The notes beneath the pieces are model-generated. The model was not told the DNA's origin, ran no database searches, and was given only the letters and a program-made list of their open reading frames with translations. From Streptomyces rubradiris (lineage in GTDB: Bacteria > Actinomycetota > Actinomycetes > Streptomycetales > Streptomycetaceae): 64,000 nt of DNA. Each line of letters opens with the position of its first letter. Position 1 is the stretch's first letter. Location: positions 1,071,501 to 1,135,500 of the forward strand of contig NZ_BNEA01000001.1 of NCBI RefSeq assembly GCF_016860525.1, given 5' to 3'. This document shows positions 49,654-62,780 of the stretch, one piece after another. Position numbers and translations under genes: made by a program.

Positions 49654-49726
49654 GCGGACGTAGCTCAGTTGGTAGAGCGCAACCTTGCCAAGGTTGAGGT
49701 CGCGAGTTCGAGCCTCGTCGTCCGCT
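49654..49726 (+). tRNA. tRNA-Gly (anticodon GCC)
   Basis: 73-nt cloverleaf: acceptor GCGGACG/CGTCCGC, anticodon stem CAACC/GGTTG around the loop TTGCCAA, T arm GAGTTCGAGCC. First gene of the five-tRNA cluster. CCA is not encoded. Confidence 0.96.
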
Positions 49727-49764
49727 CGAAGGAAGAAGGGGTCATCCCGATCCCCTACACTCCT

Positions 49765-49835
49765 GGTGGAGTGGCCGAGAGGCGAGGCAACGGCCTGCAA
49801 AGCCGTCTACACGGGTTCAAATCCCGTCTCCACCT
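49765..49835 (+). tRNA. tRNA-Cys (anticodon GCA)
   Basis: 71-nt cloverleaf: acceptor GGTGGAG/CTCCACC, anticodon stem ACGGC/GCCGT around CTGCAAA, T arm CGGGTTCAAATCCCG. The three bases after the discriminator (49836-49838) read CCA, so the 3' end may be encoded here. Confidence 0.95.
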
Positions 49836-49839
49836 CCAA

Positions 49840-49911
49840 GGACGATTAGCTCAGCGGGAGAGCGCTTCCCTGACACGGAAGAGGTCACTGGTTCAATCCC
49901 AGTATCGTCCA
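49840..49911 (+). tRNA. tRNA-Val (anticodon GAC), copy 1
   Basis: 72-nt cloverleaf: acceptor GGACGAT/ATCGTCC, anticodon loop CTGACAC within CTTCC/GGAAG, T arm TGGTTCAATCCCA. It is only 4 bp from tRNA-Cys. Confidence 0.96.
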
Positions 49912-49949
49912 CTGGATCTTCGGATCCCGGATCTTCTCGAAGGTCCCCC

Positions 49950-50021
49950 GCGCGATTAGCTCAGCGGGAGAGCGCTTCCCTGACACGGAAGAGGTCACTG
50001 GTTCAATCCCAGTATCGCGCA
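49950..50021 (+). tRNA. tRNA-Val (anticodon GAC), copy 2 with variant acceptor stem
   Basis: Identical to copy 1 except in the acceptor stem, which is GCGCGAT/ATCGCGC. The changes are compensatory, so pairing is kept. Confidence 0.96.
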
Positions 50022-50050
50022 CTGCCTGTGACCCCCGGGTCACGGTCCGC

Positions 50051-50122
50051 GGACGATTAGCTCAGCGGGAGAGCGCTTCCCTGACACGGAAGAGGTCACT
50101 GGTTCAATCCCAGTATCGTCCA
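50051..50122 (+). tRNA. tRNA-Val (anticodon GAC), copy 3
   Basis: Same 72-nt sequence as copy 1 (acceptor GGACGAT/ATCGTCC, loop CTGACAC). Last gene before the cluster terminator. Confidence 0.96.
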
Positions 50123-55190: not shown

Positions 55191-56423
55191 TCAGGCGGCG
55201 GGCTCGGGGCCGACCCGTACGACCTCGCCCACGACGATGACCGCCGGGGGCTTCACCTCCTGAGACCGTACCGTCTCCGCGACCGTGGCCAGGGTGGCGT
55301 CCACCCGGCGCTGGGCGGCCGTCGTGCCCTCCTGGACCAGGGCCACCGGCGTCGTCGGCGGCTTGCCGTGGGCGACGAGCGTCTCGGCGATCTTCCCGAT
55401 CTTGTCGACGCCCATCAGGATCACCAGGGTGCCGGTGAGCTTGGCGAGCGAGGGCCAGTCGACCAGGGACCGCTCGTCGTCGGGCGCCACATGGCCGCTG
55501 ACCACGGTGAACTCATGGGCGACCCCTCGGTGCGTGACCGGGATGCCGGCCGCGCCCGGGACCGAGATGGAGCTGGAGATGCCGGGAACCACCGTGCACG
55601 GGATGCCGGCCTCGGCGAGCGCCTGGACCTCCTCCATGCCCCGGCCGAAGACGAACGGGTCGCCGCCCTTGAGCCGGACCACCGCCTTGCCCTGCTTGGC
55701 GTGCTCGATCAGCGCGTTGTTGATGGCCTCCTGGGCCATGTAACGGCCGTAGGGGATCTTGGCCGCGTCGATCACCTCGACGTGCGGCGGCAGCTCGGCG
55801 AGCAGATCGCGCGGGCCCAGCCGGTCGGCGATCACGACGTCCGCCTCGGCGAGCAGGCGCCGGCCGCGGACGGTGATCAGGTCGGGGTCGCCGGGGCCGC
55901 CGCCGACCAGGGCCACGCCGGCGGTGCGGGTGCGGTGGTGCGGGGCGACGAGGGTGCCATCGCGCAGGCCCGCCACGACCGCGTCCCGGATGGCGGCGGT
56001 GTGGCGGGGGTCGCGGCCCCGCGCGTGCGTGGTCAGTACGGCGACGGTGACGCCCTCGCTGTGGCCGGTCGCCGGGGTCCAGGCCGTGGCCTGGTCGGCG
56101 TCGTCGGAGCGGACGCACCAGACGCGGTGCCGCTCCGCCTCGGCGGAGGCACGGGTGTTGGCGTCGGGGTCGCTGGTGGCGATGAGGGCGTACCAGGCCT
56201 CGGCGAGGTCGCCTTCGGCATAGGCCCGCCGCTCCCAGGTGATCTCCCCCGCCTCGGCCATGGCCTCGACCGAGGGGGTGGCCTGCGGGGATACGACGGT
56301 GATGTCCGCGCCAGCCGCGATCAGGGCGGGGAGGCGGCGCTGGGCCACAGTGCCGCCGCCCAGGACGACCACGCGGCGGCCGGAGAGGCGGAGGCCTACG
56401 GGGTAGGCGGGATGTTCGGCCAT
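55191..56423 (-). CDS. cysG: siroheme synthase-like bifunctional protein (precorrin-2 dehydrogenase plus uroporphyrinogen-III C-methyltransferase)
   Basis: Makes precorrin-2 and probably oxidises it to sirohydrochlorin, the branch point of siroheme and cobalamin synthesis. The 410 residues have an N-terminal NAD-binding part (GRRVVVLGGGTVAQRRLPAL) and a C-terminal SUMT domain from about 165 (ALVGGGPGDPDLITVRGRRL, PYGRYMAQEAINNA, VVRLKGGDPFVFGRG, GIPVTHRGVAHEFTVVSGH). The N-terminal domain is shorter than in enterobacterial CysG. It lies downstream of the BluB-CobT gene, separated by a repeat-rich gap. Symbol used in the broad sense. Confidence 0.9.
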   Translation of the reverse strand: MAEHPAYPVGLRLSGRRVVVLGGGTVAQRRLPALIAAGADITVVSPQATPSVEAMAEAGEITWERRAYAEGDLAEAWYALIATSDPDANTRASAEAERHRVWCVRSDDADQATAWTPATGHSEGVTVAVLTTHARGRDPRHTAAIRDAVVAGLRDGTLVAPHHRTRTAGVALVGGGPGDPDLITVRGRRLLAEADVVIADRLGPRDLLAELPPHVEVIDAAKIPYGRYMAQEAINNALIEHAKQGKAVVRLKGGDPFVFGRGMEEVQALAEAGIPCTVVPGISSSISVPGAAGIPVTHRGVAHEFTVVSGHVAPDDERSLVDWPSLAKLTGTLVILMGVDKIGKIAETLVAHGKPPTTPVALVQEGTTAAQRRVDATLATVAETVRSQEVKPPAVIVVGEVVRVGPEPAA

Positions 56424-56821
56424 GAGGGCGTCCTCCGGTGGCTTTGCGGTGGCGCTGACGTGCGGATTTTACGGTGACGGCGGGGTGGGTGGGGCAGGTG
56501 TCCGGTGACTGGGCAGCAGCGCCGGGGACCGGTCGTGGTGGGAGCCGGCGGGCGCGGGCCGGTGGACGACGTAGGAGGGCATGGACAGGTGCTCGGCAGC
56601 GGCCCGTGGACGCCGGGAGGCATCGGCGGGCGCCCGGCAACCGGCCCGCAGACACCGGAAGGCATCGGCGGGCGCCCGGCAACCGGCCCGTGGACGACGC
56701 GAGGGAGCGTCGACAGGTGCCCGGCACCGGTCCGTACGCCGGAAGGCATCCCCGGATGCCCGGCAACCGGCCCGTGGACGGCGGAAGGCGCCCGGTGCCG
56801 CGCGTGCCGGGCGCCTGTCTC
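56424..56821. other. repeat-rich gap between the CobT fusion and cysG-like genes
   Basis: 398 bp, about half of it the tandem repeat at 56591-56800. No B12-box or other cobalamin-riboswitch core is visible. The cysG-like gene may have its own promoter near 56430-56590. Confidence 0.5.
56591..56800. repeat. minisatellite-like tandem repeat, about 42-bp unit, six copies
   Basis: Units begin with G(C/T)CCGGCAAC-like sequence at 56591, 56632, 56674, 56719, 56758 and 56790, spaced 41, 42, 45, 39 and 32 bp, and share GGCCCGTGGAC and GGAAGGCATC. The array is imperfect and has no unique spacers. Confidence 0.82.
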
Positions 56822-59800
56822 CTACTTCTCGGTGACGCCCGCCGCGTCGAACGTGGCCACCTCGTGCATGGCCCTCGCCGTGCTCTGGACCAGCGGGAGC
56901 GCCAGCAGGGCTCCCGTGCCCTCGCCGAGGCGGAGGTCGAGGTCGACCAGGGGACGCAGGCCCAGCTTGTTCAGCGCCGCGACGTGGCCCGGCTCGGCAC
57001 TGCGGTGGCCGGCGATGCAGGCCGCGAGCACCTCGGGGGCGATCGCGCGGGCGACGAGGGCCGCCGCTCCGGCGCTGACGCCGTCCAGGATCACCGGCGT
57101 ACGCAGGGACGCGCCGCCGAGCAGCAGGCCGACCATGGCCGCGTGCTCGAAGCCGCCGACGGCCGCGAGGACGCCGAGCGGGTCGGCCGGGTCCGGCTGG
57201 TGGAGTTCCAGCGCGCGGCGGACGACCTCGGTCTTGCGGACCAGCGTCTCGTCGTTGATGCCCGTGCCACGCCCGGTCACCTCGGCCGGGTCGGCGCCGG
57301 TGAAGACGGAGATCAGCGCCGCGGACGCGGTGGTGTTGGCGATGCCCATCTCACCGGTGAGCAGCGCCTTGTTGCCGGCCGCCACCAGGTCGCGGGCGGT
57401 CTCGATGCCCACCTCGATGGCCGCCTTGGCCTCCTCGCGGGTCATCGCGGGGCCGGCGGTCATGTCGGACGTACCACCGCGGATCTTGCGCGGCAGCAGG
57501 CCCGGCGTGGCGGGCAGGTCGGCGGCCACGCCCACGTCCACGACGCACACCTCGGCGCCGACCTGGGCGGCGAAGGCGTTGCAGACGGCTCCCCCGCCGA
57601 GGAAGTTGGCCACCATCTGGGCGGTCACCTCCTGCGGCCAGGGGGTGACGCCCTGGGCGTGCACACCGTGGTCGCCGGCGAAGACCGCGACGGCGGCGGG
57701 TTCCGGGATCGGCGGCGGGCACTGCCGGGACAGCCCGCACAGCTGTGCGGAGATGATCTCCAGCATGCCGAGCGCGCCGGCCGGCTTGGTCATGCGCTTC
57801 TGGCGCTCCCATGCCTCGCCGAGCGCCTTGGCGTCGAGCGGGCGGATCTGTGCGACGGTCTCGGCGAGCAGGTCGTGGGGTTCCTCTCCGGGCAGGGCGC
57901 GGCGGCCGTACGTCTCCTCGTGCACCACCCAGGACAGGGGGCGTCGCTTGGACCAGCCGGCCTGCATCAGCTCGGGCTCGTCCGGGAATTCGTCGACGTA
58001 CCCGACACACAGGTAGGCGACGACCTCCAGGTGCTCGGGCAGGCCGAGCGCGCGGACCATCTCCCGCTCGTCGAAGAAGCTGACCCAGCCGACGCCGAGG
58101 CCTTCGGCGCGGGCGGCGAGCCAGAGGTTCTCCACCGCGAGCGCCGAGGAGTAGGGCGCCATCTGCGGCTGGGTGTGACGGCCGAGGGTGTGCCGGCCGC
58201 CGCGGGTGGGGTCTGCGGTGACGACGATGTTGACCGGGGTGTCGAGGATGGCCTCGATCTTCAGTTCCTTGAACTGCTTGGCCCGGCCCTTCGGCAGCGA
58301 CTTGGCGTACGCCTCGCGCTGTCGCATCGCCAGTTCGTGCATCGTCTGCCGGGTCTCGGCGGATCTGATGACGACGAAGTCCCAGGGCTGCGAGTGGCCC
58401 ACGGACGGCGCGGTGTGCGCGGCCTCCAGGACCCGGAGCAGCACCTCGTGCGGGATGGGGTCGCTGCGGAAGCCGTTGCGGATGTCGCGGCGCTCGCGCA
58501 TCACCTTCAGGACGGCCTCGCGTTCGGCGTCGGCGTAAGGGGGCGCGGCCGGGCCGGTGGACTGTCGTGCTTCCGCCACCGCGGCCGTGCTCTCTTCCTG
58601 GTCGGCGGCCCTGGTGTCCGGGTCCTCCGTCCGCTCCGTGTGCTGTACGGCGTCGGGGGCGGGCTGCGGCTCCGCCCCGGCCGGTACCTGGGCCGGCTCG
58701 CCCTCGCGGGGCGCGGGCACCGTGACCACCGGCTGCGGCTGCTCCTGCGCGACGTGCGGTACCTGCGGCACCTGCGGTTCGGCCGCGGGCGCCACCACGG
58801 GCTGCGGCGGGGTGGGCGCCAGGTGCGGGGTGGTGGGCACCTGGCCCTGCACCGGTACGAACTGCCCGAGCGGCTGCTCGGGGCCCGGTACGGCGGCGTC
58901 CGGCGCGGGTGCGTCCGGCACGGGTGCGTCCGGCACGGGTGCGTCCGGCGCGGGTGCGTCCGACGCGGGTGCCTGGGGCTGTGGTGCCTCCGGGGCCTGG
59001 GCTACGGCGGGCTGGGCGGCCGGTACGACGCCCGGGGCGTCCGGGGCATCCGGGCCCGGCTGGGCCGGAACGGCGGTGGGGGTGGGGCCGGGCTCGGCGA
59101 GGGCCGTCGGGGCGGTGGGCTCGGCCACCGGGGCGACGTCTTCGGCCAGGGCTTCGGGAGCGGCCGGGGCAGGGGCCTGAGCCATCTCCTGGGCGGGGGG
59201 CGGGACTTCGGCGGGCACCTGGTCGGTGGCCTGGGCCGCGGCCGGACCCACCTCCTGGACGGGGGCCGGGAGTTCGGCGGAAACCTGGGCGGTGGGCTGG
59301 GCCGGGTCCTGAGGCACGTCTTGATCGGCGGCCGGGCCGGCGGACGCGACCGGCTCCGGGGTGTCGACGGCGGGCTGGGGCTGCGCGGAGCCGGTGACCT
59401 GCGGCGCGTCGGCGACCTCTGCGGCCATGTCCGGCTGCGTGTCTTGGGCGGTCTGCGGGTCCTCGGTCGGCTGGGCGGCCTGAGTGATCTGCGGGTCCTC
59501 GGTGGGGTGCGCGGGCTCGACCGGCTCCGCGGCCTCGATCGGCTCCGCGGCCTCGATCGGCTCCGCGTCCGTGCCCGGCTGGACCGCCTCGGTCACGGCG
59601 GCCTCGGCCACCATGGATTCGGACGCGTCGGACTCGGGCGCGTCGGGTTCCGTCACAGCCGGCTCGGCGACGGTGGTCTCGGCGATCTCTGTCTCGGCAG
59701 AACCGCCGGTCTCGGCAGAACCGCCGGTCTCGGCGGTCACGGCGGCTTCCGAGGTCACGGCAGGGGCCTCGGCGGCGGCGACCTCGGCGTTCGTCGCGGC

Positions 59801-61117
59801 GGCCTCGGCAGCCTGCGCGAGCCGCACGGCCTCCTCCGGTGCCACCGGGTCCTCGACGGCCTGCTGCGGCGCCACCTGGGCCGGAACGCCCGGCTCCGCC
59901 GCGTCCGCGCCAGCCGCGACGCCCTCGGCGGGCGCCTCGGTTTCGGCGTCGGCGGCCGGCGCCTCGGCCGGTGCGGTGTACGCCCCGTCCTGACCGTGCA
60001 CGACGGAAAACTGACCGGTGTCGCCGGACGCGCCTTGGGCCGCCGCCTGGGTCGCGAGGCGGGCCATCGTGGCCTGGGCCGCGTCGGCCGGCTCGGCGGG
60101 GGCGGGAGCCGCGGGGGCGACGGGCTCGACGGCCTCGGCCGGGACAACCGTTTCCGCAGCCGGTGCCTGCTCGCCGACCGGAGCCTGGGCGGGAGCCTCG
60201 GCCGGTGCCGGAGCCTGGGCCTGGATCACGGCCTGCCCCTCGGCCGGAGCCTGAGCCGGGAGCTGGCCCTCAACGGGCGCCTGGGCCTGAGCCTGTGCCT
60301 GTGCCTGCGCCTCGACCGAAACCTGAGCCTGGTCCTGGCCCTGAACCTCGGCCTGTCCCTCGACCGGAACCTCGGCCTGTACCTCGGCCCGCACCTCGGC
60401 CGGAACCTGAGCCTCGACCCCGGGCTGGGCCTGGACATACGTCTCAGCCTGCCCCTCGACCGGAGCCTGGGCCTGCACCTCGGCCTGCGCCTGGGCTTCA
60501 CCCTGCCCCTGTACGCCTGCCTGAGCCTGCACGTCGTCCTGAATCTGCGCCTCGGTCTGCGCCGGAACCTGGGGCTCGGGCGCCGCCCCCCACGGTGTCG
60601 CGTTCTGCGGGGCCGGCTGGGGCTGGGCGTCGAGGTACTCGGGGCCGGAAGCCGCCGGGCCGGGCTGGCGTACCGGCGCTCCGGCGGGGCCGCGGTCGGC
60701 GAGGGAGCGGACCGGGCTCGCGGAGGCGTCGGGGATCGGCGGACCGAGGTGCAGCGGACGGCGCGGCGGCTGCGGCGCGGCGGCCGGGTCGTGCGGCGCC
60801 GAGAGGATGGGCGACGGCGGCACCGACGCGGGACCCGGGTGGGGCAGGCGGACGCCGCCGAGGTCGACCGAGCCGGTGTCACGGCCGGCCGTCTCGTGCG
60901 GGCCCGGCTCGTGGACGGCCTCCACCACCGGTTCCGGAGCGGGTGGCGGCACCTCGTTGCCCCACGCGCCCTGGGCACCCGGCAGCAGCAGGTCCTCGTC
61001 CTCGGCGGGCGCCTCGGACAGGTAGGTGTACGCGCCGTGCGCGGGGACGCCCGGCTGTTCCACCATGCCTGCGCTCTCCGGCTGCCCCTCGCCCGGGACC
61101 TGGCCGGTGTCGGTCAT
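56822..61117 (-). CDS. cobT: giant fusion: low-complexity N-terminus, BluB-like nitroreductase, CobT phosphoribosyltransferase
   Basis: 1431 residues. From about 40 to 850 the chain is Ala/Pro/Glu/Gln/Val-rich with drifting repeats (QAQAQAPVEGQ, PVPDAPVPDAPAPDA, IEAAEPIEAAEPVEP). From about 855 to 1070 a nitroreductase/BluB-like domain has RDIRNGFRSDPIP and APSVGHSQPWDFVVIRS. From about 1075 a CobT domain has FAGDHGVHAQGVTPWP, GEMGIANTTASAAL and the catalytic DLRLGEGTGALLALP. BluB makes dimethylbenzimidazole and CobT activates it, so the fusion joins consecutive steps of the cobalamin lower ligand. ATG at 61117 follows GAGGGG. Domain borders are approximate. Confidence 0.88.
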   Translation of the reverse strand: MTDTGQVPGEGQPESAGMVEQPGVPAHGAYTYLSEAPAEDEDLLLPGAQGAWGNEVPPPAPEPVVEAVHEPGPHETAGRDTGSVDLGGVRLPHPGPASVPPSPILSAPHDPAAAPQPPRRPLHLGPPIPDASASPVRSLADRGPAGAPVRQPGPAASGPEYLDAQPQPAPQNATPWGAAPEPQVPAQTEAQIQDDVQAQAGVQGQGEAQAQAEVQAQAPVEGQAETYVQAQPGVEAQVPAEVRAEVQAEVPVEGQAEVQGQDQAQVSVEAQAQAQAQAQAPVEGQLPAQAPAEGQAVIQAQAPAPAEAPAQAPVGEQAPAAETVVPAEAVEPVAPAAPAPAEPADAAQATMARLATQAAAQGASGDTGQFSVVHGQDGAYTAPAEAPAADAETEAPAEGVAAGADAAEPGVPAQVAPQQAVEDPVAPEEAVRLAQAAEAAATNAEVAAAEAPAVTSEAAVTAETGGSAETGGSAETEIAETTVAEPAVTEPDAPESDASESMVAEAAVTEAVQPGTDAEPIEAAEPIEAAEPVEPAHPTEDPQITQAAQPTEDPQTAQDTQPDMAAEVADAPQVTGSAQPQPAVDTPEPVASAGPAADQDVPQDPAQPTAQVSAELPAPVQEVGPAAAQATDQVPAEVPPPAQEMAQAPAPAAPEALAEDVAPVAEPTAPTALAEPGPTPTAVPAQPGPDAPDAPGVVPAAQPAVAQAPEAPQPQAPASDAPAPDAPVPDAPVPDAPAPDAAVPGPEQPLGQFVPVQGQVPTTPHLAPTPPQPVVAPAAEPQVPQVPHVAQEQPQPVVTVPAPREGEPAQVPAGAEPQPAPDAVQHTERTEDPDTRAADQEESTAAVAEARQSTGPAAPPYADAEREAVLKVMRERRDIRNGFRSDPIPHEVLLRVLEAAHTAPSVGHSQPWDFVVIRSAETRQTMHELAMRQREAYAKSLPKGRAKQFKELKIEAILDTPVNIVVTADPTRGGRHTLGRHTQPQMAPYSSALAVENLWLAARAEGLGVGWVSFFDEREMVRALGLPEHLEVVAYLCVGYVDEFPDEPELMQAGWSKRRPLSWVVHEETYGRRALPGEEPHDLLAETVAQIRPLDAKALGEAWERQKRMTKPAGALGMLEIISAQLCGLSRQCPPPIPEPAAVAVFAGDHGVHAQGVTPWPQEVTAQMVANFLGGGAVCNAFAAQVGAEVCVVDVGVAADLPATPGLLPRKIRGGTSDMTAGPAMTREEAKAAIEVGIETARDLVAAGNKALLTGEMGIANTTASAALISVFTGADPAEVTGRGTGINDETLVRKTEVVRRALELHQPDPADPLGVLAAVGGFEHAAMVGLLLGGASLRTPVILDGVSAGAAALVARAIAPEVLAACIAGHRSAEPGHVAALNKLGLRPLVDLDLRLGEGTGALLALPLVQSTARAMHEVATFDAAGVTEK

Positions 61118-61460
61118 GCGTACCCCTCGCCCATCGGTTAGTGCTTCCTACGACCAGCTCACCCGGAACGGCGCACCGACCGCCCCGCAGTGAAGAACGA
61201 GCGTCCGTGCCCAGCGGCACGAACGACCCGCCGGAAAAGGCGACAAAGCCATTCAGTGGCATTGTCCCGGCCGTTCCGCCGTCGCGACAGCATGATCCGC
61301 GACAGCCCGCTGTGGACTGCGCCACGTTGCGCGTCCTCCGGTTCCGCAGTACCACACCCGCCCAAGACGGGCGTGCGATCCGGACATTGGCGAACGAAGT
61401 CCGGGCCACCGGTGCGGTACAACGATCGGCCAGCCTACCGCGCGCGGTACGACAACCGGA
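61118..61460. other. region upstream of the BluB-CobT gene
   Basis: 343 bp on the minus strand between CbiE-CbiT and the fusion gene, lower in G+C than its surroundings in places. It should hold the promoter of the fusion gene. A GCCACTG string occurs near 61258, but no B12 box or riboswitch core is present. No gene recognised. Confidence 0.5.
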
Positions 61461-62780
61461 TCACGGGGCGCGATCGGGCAGGACCCCGCTGAGCAGGAAC
61501 GCGACGTTCCGCTCGGTCTCGGTCCAGGCCCTGGTGTCGAGTTCGACGGACTGGATCAGGGCGCACTGGACCCGGTAGCCGTGCTCGGTCAGGTCGCGGC
61601 CGACGCGCTCGGCGGCGTCCCGGGTGGCGGCGTGGGTGACGATGCGCCGCGGGCGCCGGTCGGCGACCGCGGAGACGACGGCCGGGCCACCGCCGCCGAC
61701 CCGGACGACGTCCGGCTCGGGCAGGTTCTCCAGGACGTGCGGGGCGCTGCCGTGGACCACCTGGAGCTGGACCCCGAAGCGGCGGGCGGCCCCCTCGGTG
61801 CGGGCGCAGGCGGCCGGGTCGCGGTCGACGGCGATGACGGCCGCGCCGGCCCGGGCGGCCTCGGCGGCGAACGCGCCGGCGCCGCAGCCGATGTCCCACA
61901 CGAGGTCGCCGGTCCGGGGCCCCAGGCGGGCGAGTTGGGCGGCGCGCAGGAGCTCCTTCTCCCCCTCGCCGAGCACCCCGGCCGGACCGCCGCCCGGACC
62001 ACCCCCCGGACCGTGGGCCGGACCATTGACCGAACCGCCGCCCGAGCCATGGGCCGAACCGCCGCCCGGGCCATGGGCCGTTCCGACGGCGTAGCTCGCG
62101 TCGGGCTGTACCCAGCCCCGCGGGCCCGTGCCCGGGTCGCGGCCGGCGATCCAGCCGCCGCCCTCCGCGGCGCCGGCCGGTCCGCCGATGACGATGACCA
62201 CGTTGGGGTCGCGCCAGGTGTGGTCGGCGGCCTTGTCGGAGGTGACGACGCTGACCTGTTCGCGTTCGGTGCCCAGTTCCTCGCAGATGACGAAGGTGCG
62301 GTGCACGCCCTCCAGCAGGAGCCCGAGTTCGGCGGGGCCGGCGCCCGGCGCGGTGAGGACGGCGACCTTGGTGTGGGCGCGGCAGACGTTCACGGCGCGG
62401 CGCAGGGTGCGCGGGTGGGCGACGACCACCTGGGCGTCGTCCCAGGGCATGCCGGCCCGGGCGAAGGCGGTGGCGACGGAGGAGACGGCGGGGACGACCT
62501 CGACCTCCAGGCCGTACTCGGGCGCGCGCAGGGTGCGTACGACGCCGAAGAAGCCGGGGTCGCCGTCGGCGAGGACGACGGCGGTGCCGCGGTGGGCGGC
62601 GATGCGGCGGGCGGCCAGCGGGAGGCTGCCGAGGCGGACGCGTTCGGCGGCGGGCGGCACCTCGGGCAGCGCCAGGTGGTGGGCGGCTCCGGCCACGAGG
62701 GTGGCGGCGCTGAGGGCGCCCCGTGCCGCGGCGGTCAGCGGCGAGCCGTCCCAGCCGATCACCGTGACCCGGTCGGCCAT
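61461..62780 (-). CDS. cobL: precorrin-6Y C5,15-methyltransferase (decarboxylating), CbiE-CbiT fusion (CobL)
   Basis: Adds methyl groups at C5 and C15 and decarboxylates during corrin-ring synthesis. The 439 residues have a CbiE methylase domain (about 1-205: ADRVTVIGWDGSPLTAAARG, VVLADGDPGFFGVVRTL), a Gly/His/Ser-rich linker (about 230-262, GGGSAHGSGGGS-like), and a CbiT Rossmann methyltransferase (about 265-439: DLVWDIGCGAGAFAAEAARA, RRIVTHAATRDAAERVG). ATG at 62780. It is upstream of the fusion gene in the same orientation, but a hairpin behind the preceding GNAT gene suggests separate transcription. Confidence 0.92.
   Translation of the reverse strand: MADRVTVIGWDGSPLTAAARGALSAATLVAGAAHHLALPEVPPAAERVRLGSLPLAARRIAAHRGTAVVLADGDPGFFGVVRTLRAPEYGLEVEVVPAVSSVATAFARAGMPWDDAQVVVAHPRTLRRAVNVCRAHTKVAVLTAPGAGPAELGLLLEGVHRTFVICEELGTEREQVSVVTSDKAADHTWRDPNVVIVIGGPAGAAEGGGWIAGRDPGTGPRGWVQPDASYAVGTAHGPGGGSAHGSGGGSVNGPAHGPGGGPGGGPAGVLGEGEKELLRAAQLARLGPRTGDLVWDIGCGAGAFAAEAARAGAAVIAVDRDPAACARTEGAARRFGVQLQVVHGSAPHVLENLPEPDVVRVGGGGPAVVSAVADRRPRRIVTHAATRDAAERVGRDLTEHGYRVQCALIQSVELDTRAWTETERNVAFLLSGVLPDRAP

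Follow-up and report, generated by a model that had tools for sequence, protein, structure and literature searches.

Why should an enzyme that joins two consecutive steps of cobalamin lower-ligand synthesis carry 856 residues of low-complexity sequence ahead of its first catalytic domain? The question is raised by a bluB-cobT fusion gene of Streptomyces rubradiris, encoded on the reverse strand within a 64,000-nucleotide stretch (contig NZ_BNEA01000001.1, positions 1,071,501 to 1,135,500), hereafter the window. Fusions of this kind are already known. The BluB/CobT2 protein of Propionibacterium freudenreichii makes 5,6-dimethylbenzimidazole and alpha-ribazole phosphate, with channelling reported, and the Streptomyces griseus fusion was noted in 2015 to extend further at its N-terminus, the extra part being "of unknown function" (PMC4657239). 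The Propionibacterium protein is like ours in having both domains on one chain with BluB first, but differs in having an approximately 34-residue proline-rich interdomain stretch, and no long N-terminal tail is described for it (PMC4657239). The S. griseus protein shares the whole architecture, including the extra part, which the same source presents as belonging to a fused protein, whereas in S. rubradiris it has the look of a motif-bearing disordered tail, with no independent relative found among Pfam and NCBIfam families or elsewhere in the genome. Our literature search found no study of the S. griseus-type extra part and no sighting of the native protein. Sequence comparison now adds that this extra part is a real tail, acidic and almost devoid of lysine, in which certain motifs are conserved, and shows how it is spread across lineages.

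A bifunctional enzyme with an acidic, lysine-free tail

Both enzyme domains lie in one stop-free frame, as an earlier note on this DNA had read it. The BluB equivalog TIGR02476 matches over profile positions 1-205 of 205 (E 1.3e-91, 305.5 bits against a cut-off of 150) and the CobT equivalog TIGR03160 over positions 2-334 of 334 (E 2.8e-125, 418 bits against a cut-off of 319.3; both NCBIfam). An alignment to structure 2ISJ covers nearly all of the BluB domain, including RRDIRN (residues 876-881) and GWVSFF (1010-1015), in which the Asp of RRD and the Ser of GWVS, both present, are the residues that we take to be catalytic. The CobT domain aligns to several solved CobT enzymes, and the Glu of its RLGEGTGA (residues 1396-1403) falls on position 317 of Salmonella CobT chain 4kqj, presumably the catalytic residue of that enzyme. 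As far as its sequence can tell, the gene product is a bifunctional enzyme, BluB plus CobT.

No Pfam or NCBIfam family rises above its cut-off within residues 1-856. This region contains 204 Ala, 150 Pro, 91 Gln, 86 Glu and 84 Val, 14 Arg, 7 Phe/Tyr, and neither Lys nor Cys; its net charge is −115, and the first Lys of the protein is residue 871. The DNA beneath it holds imperfect tandem repeats whose unit length varies from about 6 to 66 bp, and GC content at third codon positions is 0.880 in the tail versus 0.948 in the domains. Both the disorder-like N-terminus of some 850 residues and the more frequent A/T-ending codons remarked on in the earlier note hold up. From its composition, the tail is probably intrinsically disordered. 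An AlphaFold2 model of a full-length homologue from Streptomyces sp. L-9-10 (L130, 1094 residues, 26-row alignment) gives no reading on disorder or docking, because its mean predicted local distance difference test score is 41.6 and most of the known CobT region also lies below 50. Three weak PDB matches of the tail to eukaryotic ribosomal eL29 (E 1.1e-4 to 1.4e-3) were taken as shared composition rather than homology, and a Bactofilin match (E 0.31) that fell short of the cut-off was disregarded.

Relatives were drawn from 40 loci chosen by hand to include short, broken and distant cases, a non-random sample, and from 80 named loci, the best 80 of 569, of which 71 are Streptomycetaceae by title if Kitasatospora, Peterkaempfera and Actinacidiphila belong there, as we assume. 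These yielded 73 tails, all distinct, 51 from the named loci and 22 from the hand-picked loci and the window. Outside this set stand 29 of the 80 named loci and five of the 26 hand-picked same-genus loci, whose frames are broken (L041-L045). L070 and L146 appear to be one and the same contig, and neither belongs to the 73.

The 73 tails range from 406 to 1403 residues (median 709), with a median net charge of −96 and a composition of 23.6% Ala, 18.6% Pro, 9.8% Glu, 5.1% Asp, 1.8% Arg and 1.2% Phe plus Tyr. Lys makes up 29 of their 54,804 residues (0.05%) and Cys 3 (0.01%), and 57 of them are free of Lys, although the enzyme domains of the same proteins retain a median of 15. For comparison, a simple codon-bias rule applied to 464 kb of the S. 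rubradiris genome called 310 genes, which contain 2.08% Lys overall; the 66 disorder-like segments among them, the longest of 171 residues, contain 2.03% Lys and 0.78% Cys. The called genes also show 8.6% Arg, a value inflated because some of them look wrong-frame. Compared in this way among relatives, as the earlier note had proposed, the tail is a real, low-complexity, acidic and nearly lysine-free feature that is kept widely.

The tail is almost certainly translated

The length of the frame is weak proof of translation, because the DNA is about 75% GC and the opposite strand, too, has an uninterrupted frame here, of 1555 codons (56474-61141, forward strand, spanning the whole gene). That opposite frame is most likely a GC-frame mirror, and it warns against calls based on length. 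We nevertheless consider the 856-residue region almost certainly translated because of the conservation of its start, the recurrence of its N-terminus across genomes and the coding type of its substitutions. The N-terminal 149 residues are matched in 184 of 199 same-genus genomes (182 of the 194 of high quality). The conserved start is in frame at 54 of the 71 named Streptomycetaceae loci, 51 of them found by pattern and three (L072, L073, L148) read by eye; among the other 17, the frame is open to the contig end in 14, and L112, L116 and L143 have no conserved start in frame. Within the 73 tails the conserved ATG is by construction, since loci were kept for a start in frame, and a GAGGGG string precedes it at every one of these loci. 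The start at 61117 given in the earlier note is thereby upheld, and conservation across many genomes contradicts both of the findings that would have told against it, a start near 58550 and an assembly error.

The five same-genus loci with broken frames come from a set picked partly for short frames, and the breaks may reflect either sequencing error in repetitive DNA or true decay. Against the nearest relative, L031, the domains differ at 27 synonymous and 3 amino-acid-changing codons of 575, and the tail at 84 synonymous and 170 nonsynonymous of 822, with some of the difference owing to repeat misalignment. As a side observation, the frame runs to the contig end at 16 of the 80 named loci (L077, L079, L083, L084, L096, L098, L106, L109, L115, L119, L126, L138, L139, L140, L144, L145), so short-read assemblies often seem to break within this repeat-rich gene.

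Islands of constraint in a drifting sequence

An acid-hydrophobic-P-...-W pattern near residue 50 (the W motif) is present in all 73 tails, 72 of which also fit a stricter version, and in L072, L073 and L148 as well. RP[LV]H[LMQ]GP occurs in 61 of the 73 and VRSLA[DE]RG in 66, and the islands keep the same order throughout an aligned set of 22 proteins. Exactly two Trp are found in 50 of the 73 tails, one of them in the W motif. When composition was shuffled, the pattern appeared in 2-49 of 2000 shuffles per Streptomycetaceae tail tested.

Pooled over 13 close pairs and calculated from well-aligned stretches only, the ratio of nonsynonymous to synonymous differences per site (pN/pS) is 0.050 in the W motif, 0.106 in the LHxGP-SLADRG island and 0.063 in the enzyme domains, versus 0.368 in the spacer, a value that may be too low because the filter drops the most diverged spacer. 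Selection holds the acid-LLL-P-W motif as tightly as the enzyme domains (0.05 versus 0.06). This profile is the one expected of a tail that is translated and under loose constraint except at a few tightly held islands, and the short conserved motifs look like docking sites (Table 1).

Table 1. Features of the bluB-cobT locus, in positions of the window; residues are those of the 1431-residue product
Feature	Positions	Strand	Basis
bluB-cobT fusion gene with long N-terminal tail	56822..61117	−	1431 aa, ATG start, stop-free frame
Likely ribosome-binding site GAGGGG before the ATG at 61117	61123..61128	−	within 20 nt in 73/73 start-in-frame loci
N-terminal tail, residues 1-856: acidic, no Lys/Cys, Ala/Pro/Glu/Gln-rich	58550..61117	−	composition
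acid-LLL-P-W motif, residues 40-52 (DEDLLLPGAQGAW)	60962..61000	−	pattern matches, pN/pS, shuffles
Island RRPLHLGPP...VRSLADRGP, residues 119-144	60686..60763	−	pattern matches; pN/pS 0.106
Second Trp site NATPWG, residues 172-177	60587..60604	−	loose pattern fits 67/73 tails
Fast-changing, length-variable, repeat-rich spacer, residues ~190-740	58898..60550	−	repeats, alignment, substitution
Partly conserved pre-BluB stretch LGQFVPV...VPAPRE, residues 749-803	58709..58873	−	patterns in only 26-38/73 tails
BluB domain (5,6-dimethylbenzimidazole synthase), residues 861-1066	57920..58537	−	TIGR02476; 2ISJ
CobT domain (nicotinate mononucleotide:5,6-dimethylbenzimidazole phosphoribosyltransferase), residues 1095-1428	56834..57835	−	TIGR03160; CobT structures

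Tail types across actinobacteria

Whole-length fusion matches make up most of the matches listed for the genus and for the order. In a class sample of 181 other genomes, at least 16 are matched over the whole length with no less than 61% identity, and at least four others at 37-41%. Four Catenulisporales-like tails (L058, L059, L060, L070; 576-998 residues) are acidic, contain 0-2 Lys and differ in sequence from the Streptomyces type. Each has a motif that resembles the W motif, EMLVPW or EMVVPW, which lies towards the BluB end except in L060, where it sits mid-tail; it appeared in 6-9 of 2000 shuffles of each tail. Seven Nocardiopsidaceae-like tails, three assigned by name and four by their grouping in the domain tree, are acidic too and 207-525 residues long, with up to 5 Lys; LLD[GD]LPE is found in all seven (six by pattern, L067 by eye), and NPF[RQ] or NVIPFR in six. 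Nine other actinobacterial loci (L057, L063, L064, L065, L068, L069, L135, L141, L142) appear by eye to encode tail-less fusions, with frames beginning at most about 40 residues before BluB. In a domain tree of 29 rows each tail type groups firmly, and the deep order is compatible with one origin or several; on the tree as drawn, the tail takes at least two changes, and the starred branches force only one.

What the tail may do

If the fusion behaves as its families and the homologous Propionibacterium protein suggest, BluB would turn reduced flavin mononucleotide into 5,6-dimethylbenzimidazole and the fused CobT would carry this on to alpha-ribazole phosphate. Our preferred reading, to which we give a probability of roughly 0.45, is that the N-terminal 856 residues form a translated, intrinsically disordered acidic tether with docking motifs; we favour it because motif constraint equals that of the enzyme, island order is kept and the length between islands is free. 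The spacers could then vary freely in length and sequence while remaining soluble and short of positive charge, and the motifs near the far end (acid-LLL-P-W and LHLGPP...SLADRGP) would dock a partner protein. This partner would most plausibly belong to the late B12 assembly line, CobS, CbiB or CobU at the membrane, and docking of the tail would allow alpha-ribazole phosphate to be made at its place of use. CobT is listed as a likely member of a proposed nucleotide-loop membrane complex (PMC8092220), and CobS has been proposed as the anchor of such a complex (PMC8749415); that this complex is the destination of the tail is something that we only infer.

Several observations weigh against a docking tether. 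No partner was found, and a search of the genome with the N-terminal 149 residues brought up nothing beyond the gene itself at E 10. The pattern for the W motif is post hoc, drawn up with the sequences already in view, and it also turns up in 44-49 of 2000 shuffles for L072 and L073. Synonymous differences are very scarce in codons 1-16 (pS only 0.04, pN/pS 0.158), so constraint at the N-terminus may partly serve translation initiation. The W motif is missing from all seven Nocardiopsidaceae-like tails, which have LLD[GD]LPE instead. Tail-less fusions, including the active Propionibacterium enzyme, show that catalysis can do without the tail.

The main rival, which we regard as possible without being persuaded by it, is that the tail is an acidic entropic bristle with no specific partner, whose charge and lack of Lys and Cys keep the enzyme soluble and out of reach of the proteasome that acts on substrates tagged with Pup, prokaryotic ubiquitin-like protein, leaving length nearly free. 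The near absence of Lys and Cys, the strong negative charge and the wide length range are what a bristle would lead one to expect, and the four Catenulisporales-like tails are just as poor in Lys despite their different sequence. Residues 1-870 exceed both definitions of a lysine desert given for pupylating actinobacteria, a Lys-free stretch of at least 150 residues or 50% of the protein (PMC10665810), although here, unlike in those deserts as that source describes them, Arg, Cys and aromatic residues are also low and the stretch is strongly acidic. The bristle accounts for composition but leaves islands as constrained as catalytic domains unexplained; low Arg would be superfluous for avoiding Pup, the enzyme domains keep their Lys and the Nocardiopsidaceae-like tails hold some too. 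A nearly neutral expansion, in which a tolerated N-terminus grows by slippage of repeats in GC-rich DNA and only the start region is conserved, seems improbable to us. The tandem repeats, the large variation in length, the far greater amino-acid change in the tail than in the domains and the broken frames (three of the 71 named Streptomycetaceae loci and the five same-genus ones) would all suit it, yet Lys is almost absent, the N-terminal islands persist in 184 of 199 genomes, and selection on the islands, with even the spacer at 0.37 and the motifs at 0.05-0.11, already argues against it.

Loading of the enzyme as cargo into a Family 2 encapsulin shell has little to recommend it. Disordered N-terminal regions are described for Family 2 cargos, several putative ones having disordered termini (PMC8346489), which is a likeness to this disorder-like N-terminus on an actinobacterial enzyme, and 196 of 199 same-genus genomes have a PF19307 shell gene, that of S. 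rubradiris a single one; being near-universal in the genus, however, the shell gene makes co-occurrence there uninformative. The sole PF19307 match in the S. rubradiris genome lies on contig 15, not beside bluB-cobT, and the protein encoded next to the shell gene is a polyprenyl synthetase (PF00348) whose N-terminus, read by eye, contains no tail motif. The terpene cyclase consensus GPTGLGT (PMC8346489) occurs in none of the 73 tails, which are much longer than Family 2 cargo termini as described there and carry other motifs. Two genomes with Nocardiopsidaceae-type tails (G489, G481) have no PF19307 match, although their motifs differ. The shell gene itself (L173, 8332-11086, reverse strand) is of the cyclic-nucleotide-binding (cNMP) domain, Family 2B type. 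Least credible of all is that the tail goes untranslated, with synthesis beginning near 58550 and the long frame a GC artefact. Long chance frames do exist here, as the 1555-codon one attests, and at 33 of the 73 loci a Shine-Dalgarno-like string accompanies an in-frame start codon between −80 and +10 codons of the BluB boundary, but neither the window nor L031 has such an internal pair, every one of the 73 loci has GAGGGG at the far start, and the substitutions are of coding type.

Channelling is an inference of the earlier note that has a published counterpart in the homologous Propionibacterium fusion (PMC4657239). Of the functions floated in the earlier note, a scaffold fits the conserved motifs and is plausible, if unproven. 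A condensate-forming tail would be expected to carry many aromatic or Arg stickers, and the scarcity of both here and across the 73 tails, with the charge of −115, leaves a condensate poorly supported for this protein; in three of the Catenulisporales-like tails there are 58-79 Phe/Tyr, and for that group the idea is harder to set aside. A processed leader finds no footing in the start MTDTGQVPGEG, which by inspection shows no hydrophobic signal segment.

Neighbouring genes and repeats

The flanking genes lie on the same strand, a CobL-like tetrapyrrole methylase (PF00590 plus a methyltransferase domain) upstream and a PF00590/PF13241 methylase of CobA/CysG type downstream. The CobL-like gene (61461-62780, reverse strand) has a Gly-rich repeat linker of its own joining its halves, with tandem repeats at 61978-62080. 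Positions 56557-56789, in the gap that separates the end of bluB-cobT from the CobA/CysG-like gene (55191-56423), hold 42-bp imperfect tandem repeats that form a 126-bp super-repeat (score 315). No cobalamin riboswitch was found in the window with Rfam at gathering scores; the only matches were tRNAs, five of whose genes cluster at 49654-50122 on the forward strand.

Implications

It is conceivable, though we think it doubtful, that these tails are recruitment arms, which would imply a new short docking motif (acid, hydrophobic triplet, Pro, Trp), a dedicated late-cobalamin receptor, and acidic Lys-poor arms, with their own motif sets, that different actinobacterial families arrived at. If so, they would offer a handle on how the proposed membrane-bound nucleotide-loop assembly complex holds together, and if the motifs do bind a partner, Streptomyces would provide a direct route for testing the proposed B12 complex. 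The depletion of Lys and Cys amounts to a precise, testable proposition on how disordered regions are composed in bacteria that have a Pup-proteasome system. As a disorder-like stretch that most genomes of the genus keep even though most of its sequence changes, the tail offers a clean natural example of selection acting on physical properties together with short motifs.

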